Below the pieces are notes generated by a model, which made no database searches, was not told where the DNA came from, and saw only the letters and a program-made list of their open reading frames with translations. Made by a program: the position numbers and the translations under genes. Positions 10,893-27,488 of a stretch of 64,000 bases of DNA are shown here, piece after piece. Each line of letters opens with the position of its first letter. The first letter of the stretch is position 1. This stretch comes from an uncultured Erysipelotrichaceae bacterium (GTDB lineage Bacteria > Bacillota_I > Bacilli_A > Erysipelotrichales > Erysipelotrichaceae): the NCBI GenBank assembly GCA_947569705.1, contig CANOSP010000010.1, positions 1 through 64,000 on the forward strand. Direction: 5' to 3'.

Positions 10893-12701
10893 TTATTTTG
10901 TTACTTTAATTAACGCTCGTATTTCTTTCCCATTCACTGTTCTTGCATATAGCCATGTTAAGCCCGTAGATCTCGCTGTTACTTTCCCGTTTTTATCTAC
11001 TGTGGCTATTTTGGAATTCCCGGTTCTCCATGTAACTGCCTGATTCGCATTGGTTGGATTTACTGTCGCTTTAAACTTATAGGTCGTTCCGCGTCTCATA
11101 ACTCGCTTGGCTGTATTTAGCTTCACGCTCTGAGGCTGCGGAATTACTTTTACTGTTGCCGTTACCTGCTTGCCGTTAATCGTTTTGGCAGTAATAACCG
11201 CTGTTCCTACACCTTTTGCTTTTACCAATCCGTTTTTATCTACGGTCGCCACCCTTGTATTGCTGCTTCGCCATGTTACCGCTTGATTCGCATTTGTCGG
11301 ATTTACCGTTGCTTTAAACTTTGTTTGCTTGCCTAATGTAACTACCTTACTGCTGTAATTCAATTTTACACCGCTCGGTTGCGGTATAATCTTTACTAAA
11401 GCTTTTGCTTCTTTTCCGTTTGTTGTTTTTGCATAAAGCCATGTGAGTCCTTCAGATTTGCCGGTTACTTTGCCATTCTTATCAACAGTAGCAATTTTAG
11501 GATTTCCCGTTCTCCAAGTAACCTTTTGGCTTGCATTATTAGGAGTAGCTATAGCTCTGAACGTATAAGAAAAACCTTTACTGATTACCTTTTTACTATC
11601 CGTTATTTTAACAGCAATCGGTTTTGCGGCAACTCGAACCAAAACTTTTGCTTCTTGACCGTTATCGAGCTTAGCTCGTATAATCGTACCGCCGGCTTTT
11701 AACGCTTTTACATTACCGTTTTGATCAACGCTCGCAACAGACGGTGAAGATGATGTCCATGTTATATTACCGACATAGGAATGATAAGGATTTAGATTAA
11801 CAGATAATTTATAAGTTTGTCCAATATCTAAATTAACTTCTGATACTGATGTCCCCATTGTAACAGATGTAGGTTCATTATCCATCAGATAAAAATATTT
11901 GCCTCTGGAGCGGATACATCCGGCCGAATTGCATGCATCAAAATATGCTATAAACCCACCGCGGTTAGGTAATTTCACCGTATAAGAGTTTTCATATATA
12001 ATCTTTTCATACGCAATCGCATTGGCCCAATTATCCAATATTGTTACTTTGTAATAATCCGTATTATTAACTGCATACCAGTTAACCGTTACAATTTGAT
12101 TGATCTGATCAAGCGTTACCCACGGCATTTCCCAAGTCACATTAGGATTTGGCGAAGGAGGGGTTGGGCTTGGTGTCGGTGTAGGATCTGGAACAGACGG
12201 TGGAGTAACAGGTAATTGAACAAACTTCACATATTTAGCTCCTGTTGTATACCTAATCGCATCGTTTACATATTGGGTGATCGATTTCGATGCAGTATAG
12301 TAATAATAATGATTAGGATCACCAAAATAAGTGCTGTTGGCTTCACTATACTCTAAGGAATTGCCATTCACACTCTCAATATAAGCGGTATGCAGTATAG
12401 TACCGTTTGCATTTACAATTAGTGCAATTGAAGCTGTGGTAGGATTACTGGAAACTGTCCCGGCATTTTGCCATTGCCCGATTAATCCGGGCAATCTGAT
12501 TCCATGTAATTCTTTTACCCTTCCCCATACATACCATGTACATTGTCCTCTGTATCCGGCAGATAACGGATTTTCGCCATTATATGCGCCCGCACTCCAA
12601 TTAGGATAGCTCGCTCCCTGCACCTCTGTCAGATTGAACGAACTAACTAAAGATAAAGTAAGTAAAAAGCATAACATCGTTTTGATAAGTTTTTTAACCA
12701 T
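10893..12701 (-). CDS. Secreted CHAP amidase with four BIG2 domains
   Basis: The ATG at 12701 is preferred because AAAGGAG lies eight bases upstream; a TTG six bases earlier is too close to that site. The 602-residue product has a signal peptide ending near residue 29, a CHAP domain at about 33-160 with Cys54 (GQCTWYVWG), His104 (ILHTAYIE) and the SLEYSEAN segment, a Pro-rich linker, a fibronectin-III-like segment and four BIG2 domains of about 80 residues to the exact C-terminus. It probably cuts peptidoglycan. There is no LPXTG motif or membrane tail, so wall retention may depend on the BIG2 array. It is divergent from the LytTR operon and may be one of its targets. Confidence 0.9.
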   Translation of the reverse strand: MVKKLIKTMLCFLLTLSLVSSFNLTEVQGASYPNWSAGAYNGENPLSAGYRGQCTWYVWGRVKELHGIRLPGLIGQWQNAGTVSSNPTTASIALIVNANGTILHTAYIESVNGNSLEYSEANSTYFGDPNHYYYYTASKSITQYVNDAIRYTTGAKYVKFVQLPVTPPSVPDPTPTPSPTPPSPNPNVTWEMPWVTLDQINQIVTVNWYAVNNTDYYKVTILDNWANAIAYEKIIYENSYTVKLPNRGGFIAYFDACNSAGCIRSRGKYFYLMDNEPTSVTMGTSVSEVNLDIGQTYKLSVNLNPYHSYVGNITWTSSSPSVASVDQNGNVKALKAGGTIIRAKLDNGQEAKVLVRVAAKPIAVKITDSKKVISKGFSYTFRAIATPNNASQKVTWRTGNPKIATVDKNGKVTGKSEGLTWLYAKTTNGKEAKALVKIIPQPSGVKLNYSSKVVTLGKQTKFKATVNPTNANQAVTWRSSNTRVATVDKNGLVKAKGVGTAVITAKTINGKQVTATVKVIPQPQSVKLNTAKRVMRRGTTYKFKATVNPTNANQAVTWRTGNSKIATVDKNGKVTARSTGLTWLYARTVNGKEIRALIKVTK

Positions 12702-12975
12702 AGTCAATTCTCCTTTGTATTTAGGCTTTCATTGTTTGAACAAATAATCATTCCCTATGAAGTTATCATAGTAGTTCAAAATAAAATAATTTTTACTTTA
12801 TTATCGGACATCCCTCGTTCCATATATTTATTATACAATACCATATCGACCTGCCCCTTAACTCCCCGTATGTCCCGATTTGCACAAAATATGTAATTTT
12901 TGGTAATTAGACTGCTCACATTCATGTCAAAAATCGACAGCAATTATGTTAAAATATACCGTGAGGAGAGAAAGT
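12702..12975. promoter_or_regulatory. Divergent control region between CHAP gene and LytTR operon
   Basis: This 274-bp region must hold promoters for both directions. On the plus strand TGTTAAAAT (12949-12957) is an extended -10 with no clear -35, as is common for activator-dependent promoters. Further up, GTAATT occurs twice ten bases apart (12893-12898 and 12903-12908). This could be an operator half-site pair, but it does not match the usual LytTR repeat spacing, so it is only a candidate. Confidence 0.4.
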
Positions 12976-13674
12976 ATGCAAAATATAATTATTTGTGAAG
13001 ATATACCGGCACAAGCAAAGCACCTGCAGCAAGAGGTTGAGAAGCTAAATATACCGGAGCTTTCCTGCAAGGTTTATTCAAGCGCTGCAGAACTTTTAAA
13101 AGATTTGCCGGAAATGAATGCTTACAGTATTTTTTTATTAGATGTCATGATGCCTGATATCGACGGCATTTCGCTTGCTAAAATAATCAATGAAAGCCAC
13201 CCGCATTCCTGTATCATTTACATCACTGCATATATTCATACTGTTACCGATGCACAGGATACGAAACATTGTTACTTTTTGTTAAAATCGGAGTTAGAAA
13301 AACGACTTCCGATTGCTGTGGAAAAAGCTATGAACCTTATTAAAGAAACCGCGAAAACGATTTTAGTAACACAAGGTTCTTCCAAGCTTGTAGTAAATAC
13401 GGATGATATTTTATATTTAGAGCGAGTCAAGCGCTATACATATATTGTCACCAAGGACGAAAAACTTCGAGTCAAAGAAGACATCAAGGATCTAATGTCA
13501 GTACTTGGTCCCTACTTTCATCGCTGCCACAATAGCTTTGTTGTAAATTTCAGCAAAGTAACCGCAATCAATAAGCAAACTTTTTTCATTGACTCTTGGG
13601 CGATACCGATCTCAAGAAGCCATTCAAAAACAAGCGAAGCTGCTTTTCATGATTATATGATACATACAATTTAA
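12976..13674 (+). CDS. LytTR-family response regulator (AgrA-like)
   Basis: The ATG at 12976 follows GAGGAGAG at good spacing and is preferred over an in-frame ATG 30 bases upstream. The 232-residue product has a receiver domain with the acidic pair Glu8/Asp9, phospho-acceptor Asp56 (LLDVMMPDIDG), Thr in YITAYI and Lys in LLKSEL. A LytTR DNA-binding domain covers about 130-230 (DDILYLERVKRYTYI, FHRCHNSFVVNFSKV, ISRSHSKTS). It would be phosphorylated by the AgrC-like system encoded directly downstream (12-bp gap) and act as a transcription activator. Targets are not shown; the adjacent surface-protein genes are reasonable candidates. Confidence 0.93.
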   Translation: MQNIIICEDIPAQAKHLQQEVEKLNIPELSCKVYSSAAELLKDLPEMNAYSIFLLDVMMPDIDGISLAKIINESHPHSCIIYITAYIHTVTDAQDTKHCYFLLKSELEKRLPIAVEKAMNLIKETAKTILVTQGSSKLVVNTDDILYLERVKRYTYIVTKDEKLRVKEDIKDLMSVLGPYFHRCHNSFVVNFSKVTAINKQTFFIDSWAIPISRSHSKTSEAAFHDYMIHTI

Positions 13675-13686
13675 AGGAGACAGAAC

Positions 13687-14520
13687 ATGAAAAAAGCAAA
13701 TTGGTTATTATGCTTTTCCATATTACAAGCAATCACGATTATTACCCTGCTCAGCATTGTATTACTGGAAACCAAAGCCTATACAATACCCCTGCAGATC
13801 TTTGCAATTCTTATCTGTGTGATTTCCTACGGTGCTCTTTACATGGTCTATCGCACGATTATCCAAAGAGCCAAGCTGGAAGCTGACAATGATATTCTGA
13901 CTAAACAGATTGCCTTACAAAAAGAACACTATATTGCATCACAGGAAAATGAAAAACAGTTGTTGGAAATCAAAAATGAACTGTTACAAAAAATGAATGT
14001 ACAGCATCCCGAAGCTTTTCAAGATGAAGCAGCCACTAGAGCTTATATCAATGAGTTAATCGAAAAATCCGATCAAATTCAACAATTAGAATATTGTCAA
14101 AATAAGGTAATTGATGCTATTTTATACAACAAGTTTCTTATTGCCAAAGCAAACCGCATAAAGATTGAAAGCGAAGTCATATTGCCCGATGATCTGTCAA
14201 TAGATCCCCTTGATTGTATGCGGCTGTTTACCAACCTTTTGGATAATGCGATTGAAGCTTGTGCTCCCGTAGCCGAAACAGAGCGATTTCTTACAATCAA
14301 ATCGCGTATTAACAATCATACAATGATACTCCAAGTGACCAACAGTAAGTTGAAAGAGAATAAAATTAATCTTGAGCATCCGCTTTCTACGAAAAAGGAT
14401 AAAGAAAATCACGGTTTGGGAATCAGTATTATTCAAGATGTCGTTAAACGAAATCGCGGTAATATCTCTGTAGACGATCAAGAAAATCAAGTAAGTGTGA
14501 ATGTCACCTTACAAATATAG
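13687..14520 (+). CDS. AgrC-like GHKL ATPase protein lacking the H-box histidine
   Basis: The 277-residue protein has two membrane segments (about 6-28 and 34-57), a coiled-coil linker and a GHKL catalytic domain at about 170-277. The N-box reads TNLLDNAIEA (182-191) and the G-box HGLGISII (242-249), so ATP binding should be intact. The dimerisation segment reads IKNELLQKM at residues 95-103. Aligned with LRHDLLNEI of the three proteins downstream, Asn97 takes the place of the phospho-acceptor His and Glu98 that of Asp. His81 and His107 lie off the motif. The protein also lacks a polytopic sensor domain. It looks like a catalytic subunit that phosphorylates histidines on partner proteins. It is 12 bp after the response regulator gene and 11 bp before the first sensor gene. 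Confidence 0.85.
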   Translation: MKKANWLLCFSILQAITIITLLSIVLLETKAYTIPLQIFAILICVISYGALYMVYRTIIQRAKLEADNDILTKQIALQKEHYIASQENEKQLLEIKNELLQKMNVQHPEAFQDEAATRAYINELIEKSDQIQQLEYCQNKVIDAILYNKFLIAKANRIKIESEVILPDDLSIDPLDCMRLFTNLLDNAIEACAPVAETERFLTIKSRINNHTMILQVTNSKLKENKINLEHPLSTKKDKENHGLGISIIQDVVKRNRGNISVDDQENQVSVNVTLQI

Positions 14521-14531
14521 AAGGAGTGCTT

Positions 14532-15335
14532 ATGAGAGTGATTACTACGATTTTTAATCAAGTTCTTGTTTCCGTTGTTTGGCTTGTCTTTACCCATTAT
14601 TTTTTAACTCCGAAAGAAAATAATTGGAAAAGAGAAGTCAAATCTTATCCGATATGGATCATATGGATTTTTCTTACCGCAACTATTTTATGGTATCACA
14701 CTGCCGTTAAAACCGTCCTTACACCGATCATTCTGACTCTGATTTTCAGCTATATCTATCAGTTTAATTTAAAACGCTTTGCATTAGCAATTCTGGCAAT
14801 AGAAGCAGTCACGATGATCATTGAGGTAATTGCTTTGTTAATATTAACACTGTGTTTAAATGTACGACCCGAAAATATTTCTTATATCGATAATATCTTA
14901 CTTCTGCCTTTTATTCTGTCCTTTAATATCGTTGCGTTTAACTTCATTCTAAAGAAATGCAATTCCATCGGACAGCTTCCTTCTTTTACACTCATCTTTT
15001 TTCTGTCACAAATTCCGATGACATTGATGGTAGAATTGACACTGCATCCTCATGATCGCGGATCTTTGGTCGTCCCCTGCCTGTTTATTGCCGTGTTAGG
15101 AATGTTTTTTCAAATGCTTATATGGCGTCAAAAGGATGAATACTTCAACATCAAAAAACAGAAGATGTTGAATCATCAGCTTTTGGATATTTATAATTTA
15201 GAACTTGATGCTTATTTGGAACAAAAAGATCAGCTGTTGATTCAAAGAAAGCTGCGTCATGATCTCTTAAATGAAATTCAAATCGTGAAATATATGGAAC
15301 AAAACCATATGCATCCGCAGGAGCATTCGCTGTGA
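14532..15335 (+). CDS. Sensor/H-box membrane protein 1 of the split kinase, no ATPase domain
   Basis: The ATG at 14532 follows AAGGAG at five bases; a GTG at 14526 overlaps that site and is rejected. The 267-residue product has six or seven membrane segments in the first 200 residues, then a charged helix (about 205-240) and the H-box KLRHDLLNEI with His243. The protein ends 24 residues after the histidine, so no N- or G-box exists. Full AgrC-like kinases continue with an ATPase domain of about 150 residues. The stop codon overlaps the GTG start of the next gene by three bases, so no lost downstream domain is hidden here. The signal it senses is unknown. Confidence 0.85.
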   Translation: MRVITTIFNQVLVSVVWLVFTHYFLTPKENNWKREVKSYPIWIIWIFLTATILWYHTAVKTVLTPIILTLIFSYIYQFNLKRFALAILAIEAVTMIIEVIALLILTLCLNVRPENISYIDNILLLPFILSFNIVAFNFILKKCNSIGQLPSFTLIFFLSQIPMTLMVELTLHPHDRGSLVVPCLFIAVLGMFFQMLIWRQKDEYFNIKKQKMLNHQLLDIYNLELDAYLEQKDQLLIQRKLRHDLLNEIQIVKYMEQNHMHPQEHSL

Positions 15336-16132
15336 GAGCTATAACAACAATTTTGACGCAACTGCTGTGTATGGTAATCTGGTTCCGTTTCACGCATCAG
15401 TTTTTAACACCAAAAGAAAATAACCGGAAAAGAGAAGCTAAAGTTTATGTATTATGGATGATCTGGACTGTATTTACCGCAACAATCTTTTGGCATGATA
15501 CAGAGTTCAAGGCTTTGATTACACCGTTTTTTTTGTATCTGTCTTTTTCCTATATTTATCAGCCCGACAGAAAACGCTTTATTATTACCATTATCTTAAT
15601 CTTTCTCGTTATCTTGATTTCGGAAATCATCAGTATTCTGATTTTTATCACGGTATTTCACAGACAACTTGAAGCGATGAACTGGATGGATAATCTATTG
15701 CTTTTGCCGCTGATTTTGGCGATCAATTATTTTATTTTGCATGCTGTTCTTAAGCGCAAAAATCTAGTTTCCGACATACCGAATATCAGTTTGATATTTG
15801 TCTTTTTACAGATTCCGATTATGCTGATGATTGACTTATCCTATCAACAACATGCACCCGGATCGTTAAAAATTGCAGTATGGATTCTTGCTTTTTTCAC
15901 ACTCTTTTTTCAAATTTTTCTTTGGAAGAAGCGAGAAAATTATTATAATACAAGGAAGCAGGAACAACTTAATGTGCGGTTGAAGGCTTTTTATACACAG
16001 GAGATGAGTGCTTATATGAAGCAAAGGGATCAAGAACAGCTTCAGCGCAGACTCCGCCATGATTTATTGAATGAAATACAGGTTATTAAATATATGGAGA
16101 ATACAGAAACAGACGATCCGAAAGGAGCGTAA
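15332..16132 (+). CDS. Sensor/H-box membrane protein 2 of the split kinase, no ATPase domain
   Basis: The 266-residue product is a clear paralogue of its neighbours: the same N-terminal pattern (FLTPKENNRKREAK), 6-7 membrane segments, a cytoplasmic helix and RLRHDLLNEIQVIKYME with His243 at the same position. It ends 23 residues later. The GTG start overlaps the stop of the first copy (GTGA), which implies coupled translation. It is closer to copy 3 than to copy 1 in the membrane region (both share FLYLSF and MLMIDLSYQQH). As in the other copies, the phospho-acceptor is present and the catalytic domain absent. Confidence 0.85.
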   Translation: MRAITTILTQLLCMVIWFRFTHQFLTPKENNRKREAKVYVLWMIWTVFTATIFWHDTEFKALITPFFLYLSFSYIYQPDRKRFIITIILIFLVILISEIISILIFITVFHRQLEAMNWMDNLLLLPLILAINYFILHAVLKRKNLVSDIPNISLIFVFLQIPIMLMIDLSYQQHAPGSLKIAVWILAFFTLFFQIFLWKKRENYYNTRKQEQLNVRLKAFYTQEMSAYMKQRDQEQLQRRLRHDLLNEIQVIKYMENTETDDPKGA

Positions 16133-16134
16133 TT

Positions 16135-16911
16135 ATGCGTATTTTAACAACAGTCATTAATCAAATGCTATGTAACATAATTTGGTTATATTTCACTCAT
16201 CACTTTTTGATCAAGCGCGAAAATAATTTTAAGCGGGAAGCGGTCATTTTTATATTTTATATCCTATGGGCGCTTTTAACCGCCACTGTTTTATGGTATG
16301 ATACGGAGCTTAAATCGCTTATCTCGCCAGTTTTTCTGTATTTATCGTTTGCTTATATTTATAAACATGATATGAAGCGATTTATCATCACACTTCTATA
16401 CATATTTATCGGAATTTTCTTAAGTGAGATATTCGGTATTCTCTTATTCATCATGGTGTTTCAAAAGCCGCTGGAGGCTCTCGGGTGGCTTGAGAATCTA
16501 ATTGTGATGCCTCCTGCCTTACTCTTTAATTTTTGGTTGGCAAACATCATTCTCAAGTCTAAGGGATTGATTACCGCTCTTCCCAATATCAGCCTATTAT
16601 TTGTATTCTCTCAGGTTCCGATTATGTTGATGATTGACTTATCTTATCAGCAGCATTCTCCCGGTTCCTTGATTTTGCCTGCGTTCTTGCTTCTTTTATT
16701 TACTGCAATTTCACAGTTGTTTTTGTGGAAGAAAAAAGATTCTTATTTTAATGCCAAGAAAGAACAAATGATTCGCAAGCAGCTCCAAGCTGTCTATGAG
16801 CAGGAAATGGAAGCTTATTTCAAGCAACGAGATCAGTTACAAATACAGCGGAAATTAAGACATGATTTATTGAATGAGATTCAAGTTATCAGTTACATGG
16901 AACAACAGTGA
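16135..16911 (+). CDS. Sensor/H-box membrane protein 3 of the split kinase, no ATPase domain
   Basis: The 258-residue product is the third tandem paralogue. It has the same membrane layout, a cytoplasmic helix (about 205-240) and KLRHDLLNEIQVISYMEQQ, with His243 and the C-terminus only 15 residues beyond. The ATG follows AAAGGAG and begins two bases after the stop of copy 2. The C-terminal tails of the three copies differ in length and sequence while the H-box is conserved, which suggests selection on the box and not on anything after it. No AgrB- or AgrD-like peptide gene is found next to the operon. Confidence 0.85.
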   Translation: MRILTTVINQMLCNIIWLYFTHHFLIKRENNFKREAVIFIFYILWALLTATVLWYDTELKSLISPVFLYLSFAYIYKHDMKRFIITLLYIFIGIFLSEIFGILLFIMVFQKPLEALGWLENLIVMPPALLFNFWLANIILKSKGLITALPNISLLFVFSQVPIMLMIDLSYQQHSPGSLILPAFLLLLFTAISQLFLWKKKDSYFNAKKEQMIRKQLQAVYEQEMEAYFKQRDQLQIQRKLRHDLLNEIQVISYMEQQ

Positions 16912-17092
16912 AAATTGCATAAAATGGACATCTAAATTATTTTAGGATTTTCTATTTGTTAATTTCCATATAAATAAAGATGCAACTTTTGATCTTTCCG
17001 GTAATTCATTTCTAGAAGGATGAAAGGTCATAAAAGAGACTCTTATAACAAATATAATTCTCCTTTAATTTTGTTACATGTTGTTTAACAAA
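16912..17092. other. Gap after the split-kinase operon
   Basis: I see no coding sequence with a good ribosome site here. In particular, no small peptide precursor gene could be supported on either strand. Confidence 0.4.
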
Positions 17093-17138
17093 AAAAAGGT
17101 AGCGGATATTCGTTTCCTTACTAATCCTCTACCTTTTT
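17093..17138. terminator. Bidirectional terminator between convergent units
   Basis: AAAAAGGTAG (17093-17102) pairs perfectly with CTACCTTTTT (17129-17138). Ten base pairs, with A-run and T-run on opposite sides, let the hairpin end transcripts from both the split-kinase operon (plus) and the BIG2 unit (minus). The GGTAG/CTACC core recurs after other BIG2 genes. Confidence 0.8.
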
Positions 17139-17195
17139 GAAACCCTATAATAATTTATAGCGTTTTTGATGAAACACTACATTAATTTAGAATTT

Positions 17196-19061
17196 TTATT
17201 TCACTACTTTAATTAAACATTTGATTTCTTTTCCATTTATGGTTTTCGCATAAAGCCATGTTAATCCTTCTGATTTTGCAATTACTTTTCCGTTTTTATC
17301 CACAGTTGCGATTTTATTATTACCGATTCTCCAAGTTATTGCCTGATTAGCGTTGGAAGGATTTACAGTTGCTTTGAATGTATATGCAGTGCCTTTTTTC
17401 ATAACCTTCTTAGTATTATTCAATTTCACACTTATCGGTTGAGGTATCACTTTAACAGTTGCTCTAATTTCCTTACCATTTATCGTCTTTGCATATATAT
17501 ATGCAGTACCTACAGCTTTTGCACTCACTTTACCATTCTTATCAACACTCGCTATTTTTGCATCGCTGCTTCGCCATGCCACTGCTTGATTAGCATTTGA
17601 TGGATTTACAGTTGCTTTAAATTGTATTGTTTTTCCTAATGTGACTACCTTATTACTATAATTCAGTTTCACACTTATGGGTTTGGGTATAACCTTTACA
17701 GTAGCTTTTATTTCCTTACCATTGATTGTCTTTGCGTAAATATATGCTGTACCTACAGCTTTTGCGCTCACTTTACCATTCTTATCAACGCTTGCAACTT
17801 TTGTGTTACTGCTACGCCATGTTACTGTCGGATTTGCATTGGTTGGTTTAACAATCACCTTAAACTGGCCTGTATTGCCTAGGGTAATTACTTTATTGCT
17901 CACATTCAGTGTTACACCGGTAGGTTTGATATTTAAACCCTTTGCACAACTGTAATTACCGCTTTTTCCTACTACAGTAGTACCTTTTATTTTCTGAATC
18001 GGATAAACTCGATAATAGTTATAAACAGCATTTGATGCAGTTGTATCTACAAATTTACTAGTTGTAACTGTTGCTCGATATTCATATTTACCGTTTCCGA
18101 TTCTCCTATAGACACGATAACCGTCTGCTTTATTAATATTGTTCCAATTCAGTGTAATTTTATTAACACCGCTTGCTTTGGCTTTTAAATTTTCTACATT
18201 GAGCGGTACGTATCTATTCGCAGAAAGCCAGCCTTGATTTGTTGCCAAGTGTTTCGGCATTTTACTTTTTAATTCTGTTTCTGTAATTAAATTACCGTTA
18301 AATCTTGTTCTATCGCTTTCTAAATTTTTAAGACCTCTTAAATCTGGCAATGATTTAAGATAATTATCGCTGGCTTTTAAATATTCCAATTGTGTCAGTG
18401 CTTTCACAACATCAATATTACTTACTTTATTGTCATCAAAGAATAAACCATGCAAGTTCTTTAAATTTTTTAATCCGGAAATGTCTCTAACATTATTATA
18501 TGAAAAATCTAAAATACATAACTGTTTCATATTTTGTATAGGTGAAATGTCTTCTATCTCATTGCCATACATGGTTAAATTAATTATTTTTGTTAACTTA
18601 TAAAGCGGAGAAATATCTTTAATATTATTATCACTTATATCAAGATCATTTATATAAATTAAATTTGTTAATGGTGAGATATTACTGATTTTATTGCTAT
18701 ATATACTCAACTTCGTCAAATATTTTAAATTCTTTAATGGCTCAATATTAGTAATTTGATTATTGTTTAAAACCAATTCTCGCAAATTTGACAAATAATC
18801 TATTCCTTTAATGTTCTTTATTTTATTACTTCCCGGCCAACTATGAAGTTTGTAAATTTCTTTTGCCTCTCCTTTTGTTAAAATACCATCACCGTTTTCA
18901 TCACCGAATTCTAAAACCAATTCATATAATACGCGATCCGGAATACCTGTTGAATCGTTTTTTATTATATCATTATTTGTTACCTGCGCTTTAACAGCTG
19001 ATATATTAATAATACCAAGTGCCAACAATAAGCACAAACATACTGTTTTCGCTTTTTTCAT
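17196..19061 (-). CDS. Secreted internalin-like LRR protein with three BIG2 domains
   Basis: The 621-residue product has a signal peptide (about 1-25), an EF-hand or dockerin-like loop DENGDGILTKGE (54-65), and about eight 22-residue leucine-rich repeats of the internalin type (pattern LxxLxLxxNxIxDISPL) to about residue 255. A fibronectin-III-like domain (about 285-375, WNNINKADGYRVYRR) and three BIG2 domains follow. LRR heads of this kind usually bind proteins. The partner is unknown. It is the last gene of a three-gene unit, 19 bp after the preceding gene, and ends before a strong terminator. It has no LPXTG or membrane anchor. It is a shorter paralogue of the LRR protein at 24633-27350. 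Confidence 0.9.
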   Translation of the reverse strand: MKKAKTVCLCLLLALGIINISAVKAQVTNNDIIKNDSTGIPDRVLYELVLEFGDENGDGILTKGEAKEIYKLHSWPGSNKIKNIKGIDYLSNLRELVLNNNQITNIEPLKNLKYLTKLSIYSNKISNISPLTNLIYINDLDISDNNIKDISPLYKLTKIINLTMYGNEIEDISPIQNMKQLCILDFSYNNVRDISGLKNLKNLHGLFFDDNKVSNIDVVKALTQLEYLKASDNYLKSLPDLRGLKNLESDRTRFNGNLITETELKSKMPKHLATNQGWLSANRYVPLNVENLKAKASGVNKITLNWNNINKADGYRVYRRIGNGKYEYRATVTTSKFVDTTASNAVYNYYRVYPIQKIKGTTVVGKSGNYSCAKGLNIKPTGVTLNVSNKVITLGNTGQFKVIVKPTNANPTVTWRSSNTKVASVDKNGKVSAKAVGTAYIYAKTINGKEIKATVKVIPKPISVKLNYSNKVVTLGKTIQFKATVNPSNANQAVAWRSSDAKIASVDKNGKVSAKAVGTAYIYAKTINGKEIRATVKVIPQPISVKLNNTKKVMKKGTAYTFKATVNPSNANQAITWRIGNNKIATVDKNGKVIAKSEGLTWLYAKTINGKEIKCLIKVVK

Positions 19062-19080
19062 TCTCTTTCTCCTCGCTTAT

Positions 19081-21645
19081 CTAGAAGCCAAAATCAAACA
19101 CCGAGATTCGTACTTCAATTTCCATTCCGTTCACAGCTTCTCCGATAATATAAACCTGTCCCTCTGCCTTTGCCTTCACTTTTCCGTATTTATCCACCGT
19201 CGCAACATTAGGATCACTGCTGTACCACTTGATTGTTTGATCTGCATTGCTTGGTTTAAGCGAAACTGAAATCGTCTGCGTTTCTCCCGGTGTCATCCAA
19301 GGCGAATAGCTTAGACTATAACCGGTCGGTTCCGGAATTACTTTAATAACTGTTTTAGTTTCTTTCCCGTTAATCGCTTTCGCATAAATATAAGCAGTTC
19401 CCGGAGCATTAGCGACCACTCTGCCGTTCTTATTTACAGATGCAACTTTTGAATTACTGCTGCGCCATGTAACCGCCTGATTTGCATTGCTTGGATATAC
19501 TGTCGCTTTTAATTGCGTTGCCTTACGCTCTGTTAATGTTTTACTGCTTATATTCAATTTTACGCCTGTTGGTTGCGGAATAACTTTTACCGTTGCTCTC
19601 GCTTCTTTTCCGTTGATGGTTTTGGCATAAACATAAACAGTTCCGGTAGTCTTTGCCGTAACCTTACCGGTCTTATCAACAGTAGCGATTCTTGAATTAC
19701 TTGTTCGCCATGTTAGTGATCTGTTGGCATTACCGGGAAAAACATTCGCTTTGAACTGTGTACTCTTTCCGACGGTTACTATTTTCTGACTGTAATTAAG
19801 CTTAATACTTGTGGGTTTGGCAAGCACATGGATCTGTGCTTCACCCTGTACTCCGTCCGCAGTTTTTGCATATATCGTTATGATACCCGGGGCCTTCGCA
19901 GTTACTCTTCCGGATTGATCCACAGAGGCAATCTTTGAATTTTTACTGCGCCAGGTGATTGGTGCTTTCGCATTCACTATTGCGGCCTTTAACTGTGCTG
20001 AGTCTCCTATGGTAAGATCTTTCTTGTTCGGTGTGATTTTTACACTGGGTTTCGGCAAAACTTTAATTAAAGTTTGTGTTTTATAACCATTGCCTGCTTC
20101 TGCATATAACCACGCTGTTCCTTGTTGCTTCGCAGTGATTGTCCCTGTGCTGTTTACTGTAAATATTTTTGTATTACCGGAACGCCATTTAATATAATTC
20201 GTACCGGAACCGTTTGGATTATACGAAACATCAAATTTCAATTGGCTTCCTGCATTCACAACCGGACTGGAATAATTCAGCTTTATATTATTATCATTTT
20301 TTGTAAGATAAGGGATATGATATAAACTAAACGAATTATAATTATTATCTTTCCCTGCTAAGAATACAAATTCATTATTGTAATAAACAGGGGCTGCATT
20401 GCCTGAATAATAGATATTCGCATATTTTCTTTTTACCAAAACTTTCAAATTATCATCGACTAACATATATACAAGGGAATGCTTACCGTTTATTTCCTCA
20501 TCATAGAACACCGCAAAACGATTATTTGACATTTTTACAACTCTCGGATCTCCGACCTTAATACCGGTTTTCGTCGGATGATATCCGGTAAGCCATTGAA
20601 ACTTCACCGATGCGCCTGTTTTATTTGTCTTGATCGCATAAAGATTTTTCATAGAGTCTAAGTTGCCGTTGACTCCTTGTATCTTATAGTTATGAGGAAC
20701 CGATTTACCAAACACAAAGCCGCCGTTACTGCCTAATTCAAATGCATTAACGGTTGTACCGGTTTTATTATCGCCTACCTCTCCGTTAATCAGAAACAAA
20801 TCCTGTTTCGTCGTCGTTTGATTTGGAGTATTAAAATTTAAAAATGCTTCTGATACAACAGATCTCGGATATGCATCGCCATGATCAATAAAATAAAGAT
20901 TGGTACCGTCTGTTTTTACAAATTGATTAAACGAATGACTGGTATACGGCTGCTTTAAATTTTTTATTTCTTTCATGGTAGCAGTATCAATATAGAAAGT
21001 AATATTGGATTCATGATTTTTCCCATCATCGGGATTTACAAACATCGAGCGGGATGTGTGTACAACTAAAATACCACGAATAATCGTCATGGAACTCTGA
21101 CCGCAAGCAAGTGATTCTACAATTCCGGCAAGAGCGTTTGAAGCGTTACTTTTTATTTTAGCTTGTGCTTTAAAATTAAATTCAGAATCATATTTAGCAA
21201 TAGAAATAACATCCTTGGTTCTGCTTTCAGAAGGATTATCTTCACCGGTCAGTAAATAATAATATCCGTCACTTCCCTGATGCACGGCACCGTATTTTCG
21301 CATTGGTAAACTAACCGTTTTTTTCTTAATAACAGTATAGCTGTTATTTAATGTATATACATCAAGTTTATTGGTATCTTCATTATAGGCCGTGATAAAC
21401 AAATTTCCGTTTGACTTCTTAAAATAATTTAAGTACTGAGGACGAGACCAATTAAGTGGTGCATCATAAGGTGAATTATAAGTATATAATGCTTTTTTGA
21501 TCCCGTTATTTGCACTTATATTTCCAAAATCTTTTATTGCACCAAATTCTGCTTTACTGACAGCCGCACTTGTTGTAACGGTGATTGTTTGTAAAAGCAG
21601 AATAGCACAAACTACTGTAGTTACAATTTTTCTAAGCCTTCTCAT
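19081..21645 (-). CDS. Secreted propeller-like protein with five BIG2 domains
   Basis: The 854-residue product begins with a signal peptide (about 1-28). Residues 60-440 have repeated beta-strand patterns such as GYYYLLTGED, NLYFIDHGDA and FVFLAGKDN, which suggest a beta-propeller, but I do not recognise a named family. Five BIG2 domains fill the remainder (about 455-854). The most C-terminal one is more divergent than in its neighbours and ends in DFGF. It is the middle gene of a three-gene unit (35 bp after the PPC gene, 19 bp before the LRR gene). A ligand-binding role is only inferred. Confidence 0.8.
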   Translation of the reverse strand: MRRLRKIVTTVVCAILLLQTITVTTSAAVSKAEFGAIKDFGNISANNGIKKALYTYNSPYDAPLNWSRPQYLNYFKKSNGNLFITAYNEDTNKLDVYTLNNSYTVIKKKTVSLPMRKYGAVHQGSDGYYYLLTGEDNPSESRTKDVISIAKYDSEFNFKAQAKIKSNASNALAGIVESLACGQSSMTIIRGILVVHTSRSMFVNPDDGKNHESNITFYIDTATMKEIKNLKQPYTSHSFNQFVKTDGTNLYFIDHGDAYPRSVVSEAFLNFNTPNQTTTKQDLFLINGEVGDNKTGTTVNAFELGSNGGFVFGKSVPHNYKIQGVNGNLDSMKNLYAIKTNKTGASVKFQWLTGYHPTKTGIKVGDPRVVKMSNNRFAVFYDEEINGKHSLVYMLVDDNLKVLVKRKYANIYYSGNAAPVYYNNEFVFLAGKDNNYNSFSLYHIPYLTKNDNNIKLNYSSPVVNAGSQLKFDVSYNPNGSGTNYIKWRSGNTKIFTVNSTGTITAKQQGTAWLYAEAGNGYKTQTLIKVLPKPSVKITPNKKDLTIGDSAQLKAAIVNAKAPITWRSKNSKIASVDQSGRVTAKAPGIITIYAKTADGVQGEAQIHVLAKPTSIKLNYSQKIVTVGKSTQFKANVFPGNANRSLTWRTSNSRIATVDKTGKVTAKTTGTVYVYAKTINGKEARATVKVIPQPTGVKLNISSKTLTERKATQLKATVYPSNANQAVTWRSSNSKVASVNKNGRVVANAPGTAYIYAKAINGKETKTVIKVIPEPTGYSLSYSPWMTPGETQTISVSLKPSNADQTIKWYSSDPNVATVDKYGKVKAKAEGQVYIIGEAVNGMEIEVRISVFDFGF

Positions 21646-21680
21646 ATTAATTGTCCTTCTTTCAATCTTTACTTTTAACT

Positions 21681-24419
21681 CTATTTCTCTACTTTAATTA
21701 AACACTTTATCTCTTTTCCGTTTAATGTTGTTGCATATAACCAAGTCAGCCCTTCTGATTTCGCTGTTACTTTACCGTTTTTATCTACTGTGGCAATACT
21801 TGGGGTTCCTGTTCTCCATGTCACCGCTTGATTCGCATTTGTAGGAGTTACTGTTGCTTTAAAAGTATAAGATGCCCCCTCTTTTAATGTTTTCTTATCA
21901 GCATCAAGTTTTACACCGGCTGGCTGCGGAATCACCTTAATTAAGGCTCTTGCTTCCTTACCGTCCGTTGTTTTCGCATACAGCCATGTTAAACCGACGG
22001 ACTTCGCTGTCACTTTACCGTTTTTATCTACTGTTGCAATGCTTGGGGTTCCTGTTCTCCATGTCACCGCTTGATTTGCGCCGCTCGGATAAACAGTCGC
22101 TTTTATTTGTGAACTCATACCGACTGTAATAATTCTTTTATCGGTGTTTAATTTCACTGAAGTAGATTGTGGCACTACTTTTACCAGTGATTTTGTCTCT
22201 TGTCCATTGATGGTTTTGGCATAAACCCATGTCATACCTATGGATTTAGCCGTAATCTTGCCATTCTTATCAATCGTTGCGATTTTAGTATTTCCGGTTC
22301 TCCAAGTCACCGTTTGATTCGCAGTAGCCGGATATACATTGGCTTTTAATTGTGCTGTTTTGCCCACAGCTACTATTGTCTTATCACTGTTTATCTCTGC
22401 AAATGCCGGTGCCGGTATTACTTTTATCAGAGCTTTTGCCTCTTTGCCGTTTGCAGTTTTCGCATACAACCATGTTAAACCACAAGATTTCGCTGTAACT
22501 TTTCCGGTTTTATCAACAGTCGCTATGTTTGTATTGCCCGTACGCCATGTCACTGCCTGACTTGCATTAGCAGGATATACAGTTGCTTTTAATTGTGATG
22601 TTTTACCGTAAGTGATCACCCGCTTGTCCGTATTTAATTTCACACCGGTTGCCGGAATCCTTTCAACTTTTACGAGTGTCTTTGCACTGCCGTATTTGCT
22701 TTTTGCGGTTACATAAGTATTTCCGTATCCCAATGCGGTAACTTTACCGTTACTATCTACTCTCGCAATCTTACTGTTTCCGACTGAATACGTAATATTT
22801 GAGCTTGGTGTCGATACTGCATTCATATTGAATGTGCCGCCTAAGCTTAATGTTTTTGTGGATACACCGACTTTCATACCCTTTCTATCCAGTTTAAAAT
22901 GATACGGAACCTTTTCCGATCCGTCTAAGAAAGTACCGTCTACTCTGATATAGTAAGTTCCCTTTGCTAAATGCACAGTATCTTGAATGTAGGACTCACT
23001 TGCATATGATGTTAAACCGCGAACAGAGAATTCGTTTTTATCTTCAATTCCTATATCCCAGCGAGAATAAGGATTCTTAAATGCTTTATGCCAAAATTCC
23101 AGTACATAATCCGCACTCGTACCGATATTAATCTTATAATAATCTTCATCACCGGAATCTAAAATCTTGCCGTAGTATTTGGTTCCTGTCTTGATCTGAT
23201 CGGCTGCAGAAGCAGAATTATTAAACTCCGTTTCCCAAACTGATGTTTTTGTATAATTGACCTTTAGAGTATATGGAATATCACTCATCATATAAAAGGT
23301 GTTCACTTTGATAAAATAGTTGCCTTTAGGTAATCCGACATCACTTAGCTTAGTAGAATTTTGGATCATAGTAGAATCAAAAGAAGTTATTTCAACAGCA
23401 TCTTCGGTTAATAAGTCAATGGTCCAGTGCTCTGCGCCTATTCCTGCCGCATGACCGAATTCAACATCAATTTTTCCGTCTTCCGGCAATGTGAAACGAT
23501 AATAGTCTACGTCGTTATCCGACATCAGCTTCCCGTTGATCAAAGTATTCAAACTTAAATGATCCGCAACAGTCATATCGTCATTATATTCGCTTTCCCA
23601 TGTATTTGTCTTTGTATAATTAACTGTTAATTGATATGGCTTACCATGTACAGATGAAGAATAAGATCTGATCTTGATATAGTAAGTTCCTTTCGGTAAA
23701 CCGATATTTTTTAACGTCGTTTTCTTTTGACTTAATTTGGAATCAAAATAAGATAATGCCTGTCGATTACCGTTTAAAAGTTCGATATTCCAGCTATCAA
23801 CGCTATTCTCTGCCGCATGCTCAAAAATCACATCAATTTTCCCGTTTTCGGTTAATGTAAAACGATAATAATCATTATCCTCATATGACATCAACTTACC
23901 ATTGATCAAGGCATTCATCTTAAGCGTATCAGCTGTAGAAAAATCATCATTTGTTTCACTTTCCCATGCGCTTGATTTTGTATAAGATACTTTCAATGTA
24001 TAAGACACTTTAGTAACACCGGAATTATAGGAAGAAATTTTAATATAATATTTTCCTTTCGGCAAACCGATATTCTTGTTCGACGTTACCTCTTGATTTA
24101 ATTCTGCATCGAATGAACAAATACTGCCGCTTTCAGCATTTAAAAGCTCAACATTCCAATGTGCAGAATCATTTTGAATTTGGTGCATAAAATCAATATC
24201 TATTTTTCCGTTTTCCGGCAACGTAAAATAGTAATAATCTATATCACCGTAAGCACTGATCACTCCTTGAATACTTGTATTCAACGGAAGATAATCAGCA
24301 CTGCTTACATCATTGTTGCTTTCAGACTCATAACGATCCGCAGCTGTAATCCTTGTCGGATACAGCATTGAACATACAATCGCTAAGCATAAACCCAGCA
24401 TCACATTCACTTTTCTCAT
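21681..24419 (-). CDS. Secreted protein with four PPC-like and five BIG2 domains
   Basis: The ATG at 24419 is chosen because a signal peptide starts there and AAAGGAG lies ten bases before it; an upstream in-frame ATG would add 21 charged residues. The 912-residue product has four repeats of about 110-120 residues with the pattern ExNDDxSxADxL, GxDVDYYRFTLPExGKIDV and LPKGxYYIKI, which is typical of bacterial pre-peptidase C-terminal domains. Five BIG2 domains follow. There is no enzyme domain, so this is probably a structural or binding protein. It heads a three-gene unit with a conserved promoter at 24504-24532. Confidence 0.88.
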   Translation of the reverse strand: MRKVNVMLGLCLAIVCSMLYPTRITAADRYESESNNDVSSADYLPLNTSIQGVISAYGDIDYYYFTLPENGKIDIDFMHQIQNDSAHWNVELLNAESGSICSFDAELNQEVTSNKNIGLPKGKYYIKISSYNSGVTKVSYTLKVSYTKSSAWESETNDDFSTADTLKMNALINGKLMSYEDNDYYRFTLTENGKIDVIFEHAAENSVDSWNIELLNGNRQALSYFDSKLSQKKTTLKNIGLPKGTYYIKIRSYSSSVHGKPYQLTVNYTKTNTWESEYNDDMTVADHLSLNTLINGKLMSDNDVDYYRFTLPEDGKIDVEFGHAAGIGAEHWTIDLLTEDAVEITSFDSTMIQNSTKLSDVGLPKGNYFIKVNTFYMMSDIPYTLKVNYTKTSVWETEFNNSASAADQIKTGTKYYGKILDSGDEDYYKINIGTSADYVLEFWHKAFKNPYSRWDIGIEDKNEFSVRGLTSYASESYIQDTVHLAKGTYYIRVDGTFLDGSEKVPYHFKLDRKGMKVGVSTKTLSLGGTFNMNAVSTPSSNITYSVGNSKIARVDSNGKVTALGYGNTYVTAKSKYGSAKTLVKVERIPATGVKLNTDKRVITYGKTSQLKATVYPANASQAVTWRTGNTNIATVDKTGKVTAKSCGLTWLYAKTANGKEAKALIKVIPAPAFAEINSDKTIVAVGKTAQLKANVYPATANQTVTWRTGNTKIATIDKNGKITAKSIGMTWVYAKTINGQETKSLVKVVPQSTSVKLNTDKRIITVGMSSQIKATVYPSGANQAVTWRTGTPSIATVDKNGKVTAKSVGLTWLYAKTTDGKEARALIKVIPQPAGVKLDADKKTLKEGASYTFKATVTPTNANQAVTWRTGTPSIATVDKNGKVTAKSEGLTWLYATTLNGKEIKCLIKVEK

Positions 24420-24503
24420 AACTTTCGTTCTCCTTTTCGCTGTTTTAAAAATCCCATTGATACTTTCTTGCTTGTCATACAAAACTTATTATTTCCTAAT
24501 TCT

Positions 24504-24532
24504 ATTTTACATGAATTGCCTTTGTTAAGCAA
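24504..24532 (-). promoter_or_regulatory. Promoter of the PPC/propeller/LRR unit
   Basis: The minus strand reads TTGCTT, 17 bases, TAAAAT, about 85 bases upstream of the start at 24419. The sequence CCAAATAGG directly before the -35 is nearly the same as that at 27420-27428, so this is a shared promoter type. Confidence 0.65.
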
Positions 24533-24593
24533 CCTATTTGGTGAATATCCGACTTAACCCGATCCATTTATGTCATTTTATTCAAATAATAAA

Positions 24594-24624
24594 AGGTAGA
24601 CGTTTACAGCAATAAACTCTACCT
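24594..24624 (-). terminator. Terminator after the 905-residue LRR gene
   Basis: AGGTAGA (24594-24600) pairs with TCTACCT (24618-24624) and is followed on the minus strand by TTTTATTATTT. The core is the same as in other BIG2 gene terminators. Confidence 0.7.
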
Positions 24625-24632
24625 ATTTAAAA

Positions 24633-27350
24633 TTACTTTTTAATCACTTTCACCAAGGCTCTTACTTCAAGTCCGTTCACTGTTTTCGCATACAGCCATG
24701 TCAATCCTTCAGATAGTGCAGTCACCTTTCCGCTCTTATCTACTTTCGCTATTTTTGTGTTTCCGATTCGCCATGTCACTGCTTGATTCGCATTGGTCGG
24801 ATTGACTGTCGCTTTAAATGTATATGTCGCTCCCTGTTTTATCTCTTGTTTTTCACTGTTCAATTTTACTGCCTTAGGTTGCGGGATTACCTTTACCGCT
24901 ACCTTTATTTCTTTTCCGTTGACCGTCTGTGCATAGATTGTCGCATTCCCCACTGCTCTTGCACTCACCATTCCGTTTTGATCGATACTCGCTACTTTTG
25001 GATTGTCACTTCGCCATGTCACTGCCTGATTCGCTCCCGTTGGATTTACAGTAGCTTTAAACTGCGTTGTTTTACCTAATGTGACAACCTTACTGCTGTA
25101 ATTAAGTTTCACATCCGTTGGCTGCGGTATCACCTTTACGACGGCTTTGACTTCTTTACCGTTAATCGCTTTCGCATAGATATATGCTGTACCTACTCTC
25201 TTTGCGGTTACTTTACCGGTTTGATCTACACTTGCAATATTTGAATTGCTGCTTCGCCATGTCACTGCTTGATTGGCATCTATCGGATTGACTGTCGCTT
25301 TAAACTGCGTTGCTTTCCCCAATGTGACAATCTTACTACTGTAATTCAATTTTACATCAATAGGTTGCGGTATCACCTTTATTAATGCTTTTGCTTCTTT
25401 TCCGTCTACTGTTTTTGCATACAGCCATGTCAATCCGACAGACTTTGCGGTTACTTTACCGGTTTGATCTACAGTTGCCGTTTGGGGATTACCTGTTCTC
25501 CATATCACCTTTTGGTTAGCTCCGTTTGGCAATACCGTTGCTTTTAATTGACTGACTTTACCAACTGTTATTATTCGCTTTTCAGCATTCAGCTTTATGC
25601 CTGATGTACCGACAACTATCCCCTTGGCATAAGCATAATTAGTACTTGTTCCTTTCGTCTCTTTTCCATCTTTGATTTTGTAAGGATAAACACGATAATA
25701 ATTATTTTCAGTATTTGATGCCGTTCGATCATAATAAACAAATTTATCTTCCCCGTTTACCTTCTGTATTTCATTTTTACTTACACCTAAATATTGATAA
25801 GCACCGTTCACGCCGATCCTTCTGTACACTGAATATCCGTCGGCATCACTATGCTTTAAGTCCCAATACAGCATCGTTTCATTGGTTCCGGTTGGTATTG
25901 CTTTTAAATTATCACAAGAAGGCAGCATATACCGATTGGCAAGAATCCACTTTGTATCATTCGCTAAATGTGTCGGCATTTTATTCTTGAACTCCCGTTC
26001 AGTGATATAGTTACTGTGAAAGCTCTCAAAGTCAGGTTTAAAAACGGTATAATAACCATCCAGATTTACAAGTTTTGTTAAATCCGGCAGTTCTCTGATC
26101 TCATTATATTGCAGATATAAGGTGTGTAAATTGATTAAATTACTGAGCGCACTGATATCACTTATATGATTCGTGTTCAGATATAAAGCAGTTAGAGACT
26201 GTAACTCCTTTAAGCTGTCAATATTACTTATACTGTTATTATCCAGATTTATTATTTCCAATGCCGTACAATATCTTAATGCGCTAATATTATTAATTTT
26301 ATTATAGCTGATATAAAGTTCATTCAAATTAATATTTTCTGCTAGAGGACTGATATCACTGATTTCATTATCTGATAAATCTAAAATTTCCAAATTTGAC
26401 AGATTACTTAACACTGAAATATCTTTAATTTTATGATAGGACAATGACAGCCATTTTAAAGCGTCAAGCTGCTCAAGCGGATCGATACTTTGAACATGGG
26501 TAAGCGCCCAAGGATCATTGGATAAATCCAAATATTCTAATAAAGAGAGTTCTGCGAGTGATGATATATCGGTAACAGCATTAGATCCAAGATCTAAATC
26601 AGTCAACTTCGTTAAATTTTTCAGCGAAGCTATATCAGTAATGTGATTAGAAGCAAAATTAATATCTACTAAGTCAGTTAAATACTCCAGTGCAGAAAGA
26701 TCTTTAATATTATTATGCTCAAAACGTAAATAATTCAATCTTGTTAAATTCGCAAGAGGACCGATATCTTCGATTTCATTCCAACCACTGTTAATAGTAG
26801 ACAACTGATTCATTTCTGACAATGCGGTAATATCTTTTATTTTATTATTTTGAATCCACAATTGTTCTAAGTTCACAAGATTGCTTAAATCAGAAATATC
26901 AATAATTTGATTAGATCCAATATTTAAATAGGTCAAATCAGTCAAGTTTGCGATCGGTGAAACATCTTTGATTTGATTATGACTCAAGTTCAGACTTGTT
27001 AAATTTATCATATTGTTCAATACTGTTAAATCAGATATCTGACCGCCGCGAAGCGCTAATACACTCAAGTTTGTTAATAGGTCTAATCCGGTTAAATCGG
27101 CAACACCTGAAGATGCATATTCAGAACCTAATGTCGTAATATGCAGAGCTTCCTGTTTTGTTAAAATACCGTCATGATCGGCATCTCCTGCTTCTAACAC
27201 CAATTTATATAACGCCGCATCTGGAATGCCGCTCGCATCATTCTTTATGACATCAACGCCGTCATTGTTTCCTTCTGCATTCACACATGTTATATTACAT
27301 ATTCCTATAATCATTACTAAGCACAAGCATAGCTTCCCAATCTTTTTCAT
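24633..27350 (-). CDS. Secreted internalin-like LRR protein with four BIG2 domains
   Basis: The ATG at 27350 has AAAAGGAG nine bases upstream and begins a signal peptide; an earlier in-frame ATG adds nine charged residues. The 905-residue product has the EF-hand or dockerin-like loop DADHDGILTKQE, then about eighteen 22-residue leucine-rich repeats (residues about 75-500; SLNLSHNQIKDVSPIANLT type), a fibronectin-III-like domain and four BIG2 domains. It is a longer version of the LRR protein at 17196-19061 with the same domain order. It is a single-gene unit with its own promoter and terminator. Host or bacterial protein binding is inferred from the LRR family. Confidence 0.9.
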   Translation of the reverse strand: MKKIGKLCLCLVMIIGICNITCVNAEGNNDGVDVIKNDASGIPDAALYKLVLEAGDADHDGILTKQEALHITTLGSEYASSGVADLTGLDLLTNLSVLALRGGQISDLTVLNNMINLTSLNLSHNQIKDVSPIANLTDLTYLNIGSNQIIDISDLSNLVNLEQLWIQNNKIKDITALSEMNQLSTINSGWNEIEDIGPLANLTRLNYLRFEHNNIKDLSALEYLTDLVDINFASNHITDIASLKNLTKLTDLDLGSNAVTDISSLAELSLLEYLDLSNDPWALTHVQSIDPLEQLDALKWLSLSYHKIKDISVLSNLSNLEILDLSDNEISDISPLAENINLNELYISYNKINNISALRYCTALEIINLDNNSISNIDSLKELQSLTALYLNTNHISDISALSNLINLHTLYLQYNEIRELPDLTKLVNLDGYYTVFKPDFESFHSNYITEREFKNKMPTHLANDTKWILANRYMLPSCDNLKAIPTGTNETMLYWDLKHSDADGYSVYRRIGVNGAYQYLGVSKNEIQKVNGEDKFVYYDRTASNTENNYYRVYPYKIKDGKETKGTSTNYAYAKGIVVGTSGIKLNAEKRIITVGKVSQLKATVLPNGANQKVIWRTGNPQTATVDQTGKVTAKSVGLTWLYAKTVDGKEAKALIKVIPQPIDVKLNYSSKIVTLGKATQFKATVNPIDANQAVTWRSSNSNIASVDQTGKVTAKRVGTAYIYAKAINGKEVKAVVKVIPQPTDVKLNYSSKVVTLGKTTQFKATVNPTGANQAVTWRSDNPKVASIDQNGMVSARAVGNATIYAQTVNGKEIKVAVKVIPQPKAVKLNSEKQEIKQGATYTFKATVNPTNANQAVTWRIGNTKIAKVDKSGKVTALSEGLTWLYAKTVNGLEVRALVKVIKK

Positions 27351-27390
27351 CAGTTCCGTCTCCTTTTCAATGTACACCTTTTATAAGGTC

Positions 27391-27419
27391 ATTTTACATT
27401 AATTATCAAGATAAAGCAA
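27391..27419 (-). promoter_or_regulatory. Promoter of the 905-residue LRR gene
   Basis: The minus strand reads TTGCTT, 17 bases, TAAAAT, about 40 bases upstream of the ATG at 27350. CCACATAGG precedes the -35, and ATTAATG precedes the -10. The arrangement matches the promoter at 24504-24532. Confidence 0.65.
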
Positions 27420-27450
27420 CCTATGTGGAACAATAAGCATCAACAAAAAA

Positions 27451-27481
27451 AGGTAGATGTTTAAATTACAAAACCCTACCT
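27451..27481 (-). terminator. Terminator after the CHAP-trefoil-BIG2 gene
   Basis: AGGTAG (27451-27456) pairs with CTACCT (27476-27481). On the minus strand seven or more T residues follow. The stem is short but has the conserved core. Confidence 0.6.
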
Positions 27482-27488
27482 ATATAAA

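Follow-up and report, generated by a model that had tools for sequence, protein, structure and literature searches.

A putative AgrC/HPK10-type split histidine kinase in which several membrane receptors appear to share one ATPase subunit

Gene content of the operon

Depictions of histidine kinases nearly always show a homodimer that is complete in itself. The window analysed here, a stretch of 64,000 nucleotides from an uncultured Erysipelotrichaceae bacterium, contains an operon that encodes one ATPase subunit without the H-box histidine and three membrane sensors that carry the histidine and no ATPase domain.

All five genes lie on the forward strand in the order response regulator, ATPase subunit, sensor 1, sensor 2 and sensor 3, and neighbouring genes either overlap slightly or are no more than 12 bases apart. 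The response regulator (12976..13674) is of the AgrA type, with a receiver domain (Pfam Response_reg, E=1.5e-12), in which the acceptor aspartate lies within LLDVMMPDIDG, and a LytTR DNA-binding domain (E=1.4e-15). The sequence gaggag precedes its start at 12976, and an in-frame ATG is also present upstream at 12946. The ATPase subunit (13687..14520), which appears to be shared, has 277 residues and two transmembrane segments, and matches Pfam HATPase_c_5 over residues 173-275 (E=2.7e-22). Sensor 1 (14532..15335, 267 residues, with its ATG at 14532 and a GTG at 14526 as an alternative start) has seven hydrophobic segments followed by RHDLLNE, and ends 24 residues after the histidine, His243. 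Sensor 2 (15332..16132, 266 residues) and sensor 3 (16135..16911, 258 residues) have the same architecture, also with the histidine at position 243, and end 23 and 15 residues after it. On recheck, the reading frames and coordinates of the four kinase genes (13687-16911) in the original prediction were correct.

Distribution across the order

With a profile of the three sensors the cassette was found again in G006, a sister genome that matches bacterium c-19 (QZED01000034), and in a scan of genome contigs this sister genome was the only match. With the sensor profile, remote relatives were also retrieved in three other genera, all of them short H-box sensors near an ATPase without the histidine. 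Between the window and the sister genome, dN/dS is 0.08-0.26 over the five genes, with few changes in the response regulator and in sensor 1 (0.13 for sensor 1, 0.125 for sensor 2 and 0.17 for sensor 3), and the H-box is identical in all three sensors. Purifying selection thus acts on all five operon genes.

The survey covered 316 genomes of the order, which were searched with sensor and ATPase profiles before the regions were inspected. A split design was found at 23 loci in 20 genomes, spanning at least 13 genera and two families of the one order, with one to four sensors per ATPase. On sequence evidence, then, a divided kinase is present in this gut-type bacterium and in no fewer than 19 further species of the order. 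The loci fall into two classes that differ in where the sensors end, with class-1 loci, to which the window belongs, in 18 genomes and class-2 loci in four (two of them new). The division recurs but the gene order of the window does not always do so: besides response regulator–ATPase–sensors, we observed response regulator–sensor–ATPase–sensors, sensors–response regulator–sensor–ATPase, response regulator–sensor–ATPase and sensors–ATPase–response regulator. Both parts are present at all listed loci, and a response regulator at nearly all. Exceptions to the usual layout are G299, where the nearest sensor lies about 10.5 kb from the ATPase, and G111, where the response regulator is outside the operon; in the G056 assembly a stop codon interrupts the ATPase.

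With a four-row ATPase profile, class-1 ATPases score 128-411 bits versus at most 115.5 for fused kinases. In a tree of the ATPase domains class 1 forms one group (support 96/91) and class 2 another (86/77); an independent origin of the two classes of split ATPase was not shown, a single clade being not rejected (p-AU 0.266). Outside the order, scans of the class and of the phylum revealed no other class-1 split, in a phylum sample that apparently lacked Clostridia and whose matches all came from the same class. Soluble GHKL proteins of about 220 residues with an internal H-box, and a candidate in G594, are complete kinases and were rejected as splits.

Two further pairs were seen beside the two classes. 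In G045 (L142:4857-6493), a 211-residue GHKL protein is followed by a 334-residue sensor with RHDYKNV and 78 residues after the histidine, an apparent further split. A third type, in G123 (L103:14089-15686), combines a 247-residue GHKL protein lacking the histidine with a sensor that has RHDQRNH and a 40-residue tail, and lies on the same contig as a class-1 system.

The ATPase subunit and its missing histidine

The ATPase subunit has an intact N-box (NLLDNAIEA) and an intact G-box (HGLGI), preceded by a helical DHp-like part for which a Pfam search gave no DHp match. In this part the original prediction had placed Asn97 at the H-box position. An alignment in which the bacterial class contributed 17 fused HPK10 kinases bears this out, as Asn97 falls in the column of the H-box histidine. 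The histidine is missing from this column in 20 of 21 split ATPases, where N, E, K, L, Q or D takes its place, and is present in 14 of the 17 fused controls. Since Asn97 and the split ATPases align with the histidine column of the fused kinases, the proposed residue-for-residue register of IKNELLQKM with LRHDLLNEI holds. The N-box and G-box residues, by comparison, are invariant in all 14 class-1 ATPases aligned, each of which has a GHKL domain.

The one split ATPase with a histidine in the column is a class-1 protein of G155 (L105:8139-8981), which reads KHDVIE and lacks the asparagine at +4; it is possibly an intermediate or still active form. Two of the three fused controls without the histidine (both on L129) belong to the reciprocal split described below. 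The third, encoded in the genome of the window itself (L119:2417-3847, G000:C28), is an orphan 476-residue GHKL receptor with NNRTKNLDTQM at the H-box position and no adjacent regulator, which could pair with another histidine-bearing protein.

The H-box of the sensors

The motif R242-H243-D244-L245-L246-N247-E248 is common to all three sensors, of which the second and third are 42-45% identical to sensor 1. No HATPase domain was found in them with Pfam or NCBIfam, so that the description of three membrane sensors with a perfect RHDLLNE that end 15-24 residues past the histidine without an ATPase domain stands. The sensors fall under the cut-offs of both databases, and the NCBIfam search of the operon proteins added nothing decisive; in two sensors the Spo0B-type helix SPOB_a was the weak best Pfam match over the H-box. 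As the receptor halves lie under these cut-offs, such systems have probably been missed or annotated as hypothetical.

Among the short sensors listed across the loci, a list drawn using an H-box motif, H and D are present in 39 of 39 and the asparagine at +4 in 38 of 39. When the operons were walked without use of that motif, every complete sensor-like membrane gene adjoining them had the box, leaving aside unrelated neighbours that lie beyond the kinase genes; one gene is cut short by a contig end. In an alignment of ten sensors, in which the remote rows are only 15-18% identical to the first, the invariant positions are E98, R242, H243, D244 and N247 only.

Position of the cut and relation to AgrC

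AgrC of Staphylococcus aureus, with its regulator AgrA, is the closest solved relative and likewise pairs a multi-transmembrane receptor with a LytTR regulator, but it has sensor, histidine and ATPase in one polypeptide, whereas in the window these are divided over separate proteins. The ATPase profile has AgrC as its best match in the PDB (4bxi, E=3e-8; 6e52, E=5e-7), and the sensor-tail profile matches AgrC 6e52 weakly (E=0.1) yet in register, with LRHDllN on FRHDYVN; the two profiles thereby match successive parts of one AgrC structure, the sensor match being the weak one (E=0.1). The operon shows the GHKL HATPase_c_5 domain related to AgrC and the LytTR response regulator as partner. The HDxxN H-box typical of HPK10/AgrC is found in the sensors and not in the ATPase subunit, and no chain of the operon joins multi-transmembrane receptor, H-box and ATPase. 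Single-chain structure predictions were of low confidence (mean pLDDT 52 and 55).

In AgrC, a functional dimer, the DHp region is a hairpin of two helices; alpha1 ends at I252, 13 residues past His239, and M257 to N287, or +18 to +48, make up alpha2 (PMC6755735). Class-1 sensors mostly end 9-26 residues past the histidine, at or just after the turn between the AgrC DHp helices, and class-2 sensors end 32-46 residues past it, near the end of alpha2 at the border of DHp and ATPase. Judged by these predicted ends, the position of the cut differs between the classes. In class 1 the receptor is without alpha2, which the ATPase protein supplies while retaining a degenerate alpha1 of its own. The expectation that the two halves complement each other exactly was therefore only partly right: the functions are complementary and lie on separate polypeptides, but the cut is not exact, because the ATPase protein keeps its degenerate alpha1 along with alpha2 and alpha1 is thus present on both.

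A reciprocal partition

The strongest support for reading these loci as a split kinase was unplanned, and comes from a genus (g36) in which the partition is reversed. In four of its genomes (G084, G109, G314 and G041; L129:1294-4526, L136:3325-6565, L137 and L138:4328-7534), the shared subunit is a protein of about 235 residues with two transmembrane segments and YHDLSNH, and with no N-box, G-box or GHKL match. It is followed by two seven-transmembrane receptors of 411-426 residues, which have a GHKL domain and a shortened DHp region without the conserved histidine. LytTR regulators adjoin these genes in G084 and G041. The receptors have NLLKNA as their N-box in place of NLLDNA, which makes it less certain that they are active. 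Either partition would leave one histidine and one ATPase per presumed heteromer, and that two opposite partitions should both do so is a strong argument for complementation in trans.

Proposed mechanism and alternative explanations

The best explanation, and in our view a likely one, is a split AgrC/HPK10-type histidine kinase with multiple receptors. The sequences themselves show the gene content, the loss and retention of motifs and the conservation across two families. A split kinase predicts that its halves are conserved together and are complementary, which is the case at 23 loci in two families; the system is conserved and probably functional. In the mechanism that we propose, each receptor would associate with the ATPase subunit via the DHp helices to give a heteromer; in the class of the window, alpha1 of the receptor would pack on alpha1/alpha2 of the ATPase protein, and in class 2 the receptor would bring most of a DHp hairpin. 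On signal binding, the ATPase would phosphorylate His243 in trans, and the phosphate would pass to the LytTR regulator. Several receptors appear to share one catalytic engine, and receptors that draw on one pool of ATPase could integrate their signals or compete.

The alternative that survives best, though we think it unlikely, gives the sensors a role as competitors or as helices for phosphotransfer or phosphatase activity, and makes the ATPase protein a pseudokinase scaffold; another, fused kinase of the genome would phosphorylate the response regulator, and the operon would modulate it. Fused HPK10 kinase–regulator pairs with the histidine do occur elsewhere in the window's genome (L117, L118), HDxxN doubles as a phosphatase motif in bifunctional kinases (HE/DxxN/T, PMC3591291), and the weak SPOB_a match in two sensors fits a phosphotransfer role. 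However, the N- and G-boxes are invariant over 14 divergent homologues, which would be unexpected of a scaffold; both parts are present at every listed locus, with a regulator at nearly all, and the reciprocal split retains one ATPase and one histidine.

It is very improbable that His81, singled out beforehand as the competing acceptor, or another histidine of the ATPase protein makes this protein a complete kinase that the sensors merely regulate. The window protein shares His81 with most class-1 homologues, but it is replaced by tyrosine in 4 of 14, precedes the H-box column by 16 residues with no acidic residue after it in the window protein, and as acceptor would leave the conserved H-box of the sensors unexplained. 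For a reading of the genes as degenerate or mis-assembled, as truncated paralogues of a fused kinase, speaks the stop inside the ATPase at the G056 locus, but a pseudogene or assembly artefact is made highly improbable by the low dN/dS in all five genes and the operon walk; the same design occurs in 13 genera, and the consecutive sensors have overlapping or abutting stop and start codons, which leave no room for a lost ATPase domain. Fusion of sensor and ATPase into ordinary kinases during translation, by frameshift or readthrough, draws on overlapping genes at some loci (G080, G035, G139, G155) and is highly improbable given the gene order, since the ATPase precedes the sensors in the window, the order of sensors varies among loci and the ATPase has two transmembrane segments of its own.

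Relation to known split kinases

Split histidine kinases as such are already known; what appears new here is the striking one-to-many AgrC/HPK10 design together with its mirror-image version. CheA3 and CheA4 of Rhodobacter sphaeroides, put forward in the original prediction as a precedent for action in trans, do provide a biochemical one: like the proteins of the window, they carry ATP binding and acceptor on different proteins and are linked to a response regulator, and phosphorylation needs the two together; EnvZ, too, still works after artificial splitting (PMC3591291). CheA3 and CheA4 are, however, of the CheA class, acting in chemotaxis with a P1 acceptor domain and as one partner pair, whereas the window system is of the HPK10 type, with the acceptor helix on membrane receptors, a single ATPase per set of receptors and a LytTR regulator. 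No Pfam or NCBIfam match to the CheA P1, P3 or P5 domains (HPt, CheW-like) was found in the operon. The split CheA of Synechocystis, Hik36/Hik43 (PilL-N/PilL-C), likewise has an interacting acceptor half and catalytic half, but belongs to the CheA family, is encoded by distant genes and does not consist of receptors (PMC7656254).

A SMART census predicted 1556 of 42417 HisKA proteins to be split kinases, as they lack HATPase, with no partner assigned, and according to modelling work, split kinases that are bifunctional should show ultrasensitivity and bistability (PMC3591291). The loci described here have the acceptor histidine and the ATPase on different polypeptides that are encoded together, at 23 loci in 20 genomes. 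The census covers HisKA; the window sensors, being under the Pfam cut-offs, would therefore be missed by a census of that type. In line with the earlier statement that no described LytTR/HPK10 case was known, searches of open-access full text found no account of an HPK10/LytTR split kinase with one subunit for several receptors, only split CheA and the HisKA census.

In Spo0B-type phosphotransferases, an H-box helix is carried on a protein without a working ATPase. The shared histidine subunit of g36 resembles such a DHp domain with a dead ATPase domain, and SPOB_a is the weak match in the window sensors. These sensors nevertheless differ from the Spo0B type in having no second DHp helix and no remnant of an ATPase, in being seven-transmembrane proteins and in lying next to an ATPase of their own. 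A two-helix DHp hairpin and a degenerate ATPase on one chain are thus not found, class-1 sensors ending mostly 9-26 residues past the histidine.

It seems rather probable that these loci represent a kinase family in which one common catalytic subunit serves one to four receptors and in which evolution has divided histidine and ATPase both ways. If so, the logic would be comparable to that of a common signal-transducing chain with interchangeable receptors: a modular kinase of one shared ATPase and swappable receptors would allow signals to be integrated at the kinase itself. Such systems would lend themselves naturally to the study of trans-phosphorylation and of asymmetry in the DHp domain, and could supply parts from which to build synthetic receptors.

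Genomic neighbourhood and candidate targets

In comparison with AgrC/AgrA of S. aureus, no agrB- or agrD-like genes were noted adjoining the window operon. A search for LytTR-type repeats 5′ of the operon and of the neighbouring Big_2 genes gave nine direct-repeat pairs, where shuffled sequence gave 3.1 on average and 10 at most; the count is not above chance overall, and there was no motif in common. At 12924-12954, upstream of the response regulator start at 12976, lies a weak direct repeat, ATGTCAAAA / ATGTTAAAA, 22 bases apart.

Divergent from the operon, on the reverse strand, a secreted protein with CHAP and Big_2 domains (10893..12707; Pfam) is encoded and is a possible target. A divergent CHAP and Big_2 gene also adjoins the cassette in the sister genome (L018:9673-11388; Pfam), and large secreted or repeat proteins adjoin a split-kinase locus in two further cases (L015, L091). 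The Big_2 surface proteins near the operon are candidate targets. In all, six Big_2 secreted proteins are encoded on the reverse strand around the operon (10893-29690), with CHAP, LRR, PPC or ricin-type lectin domains.
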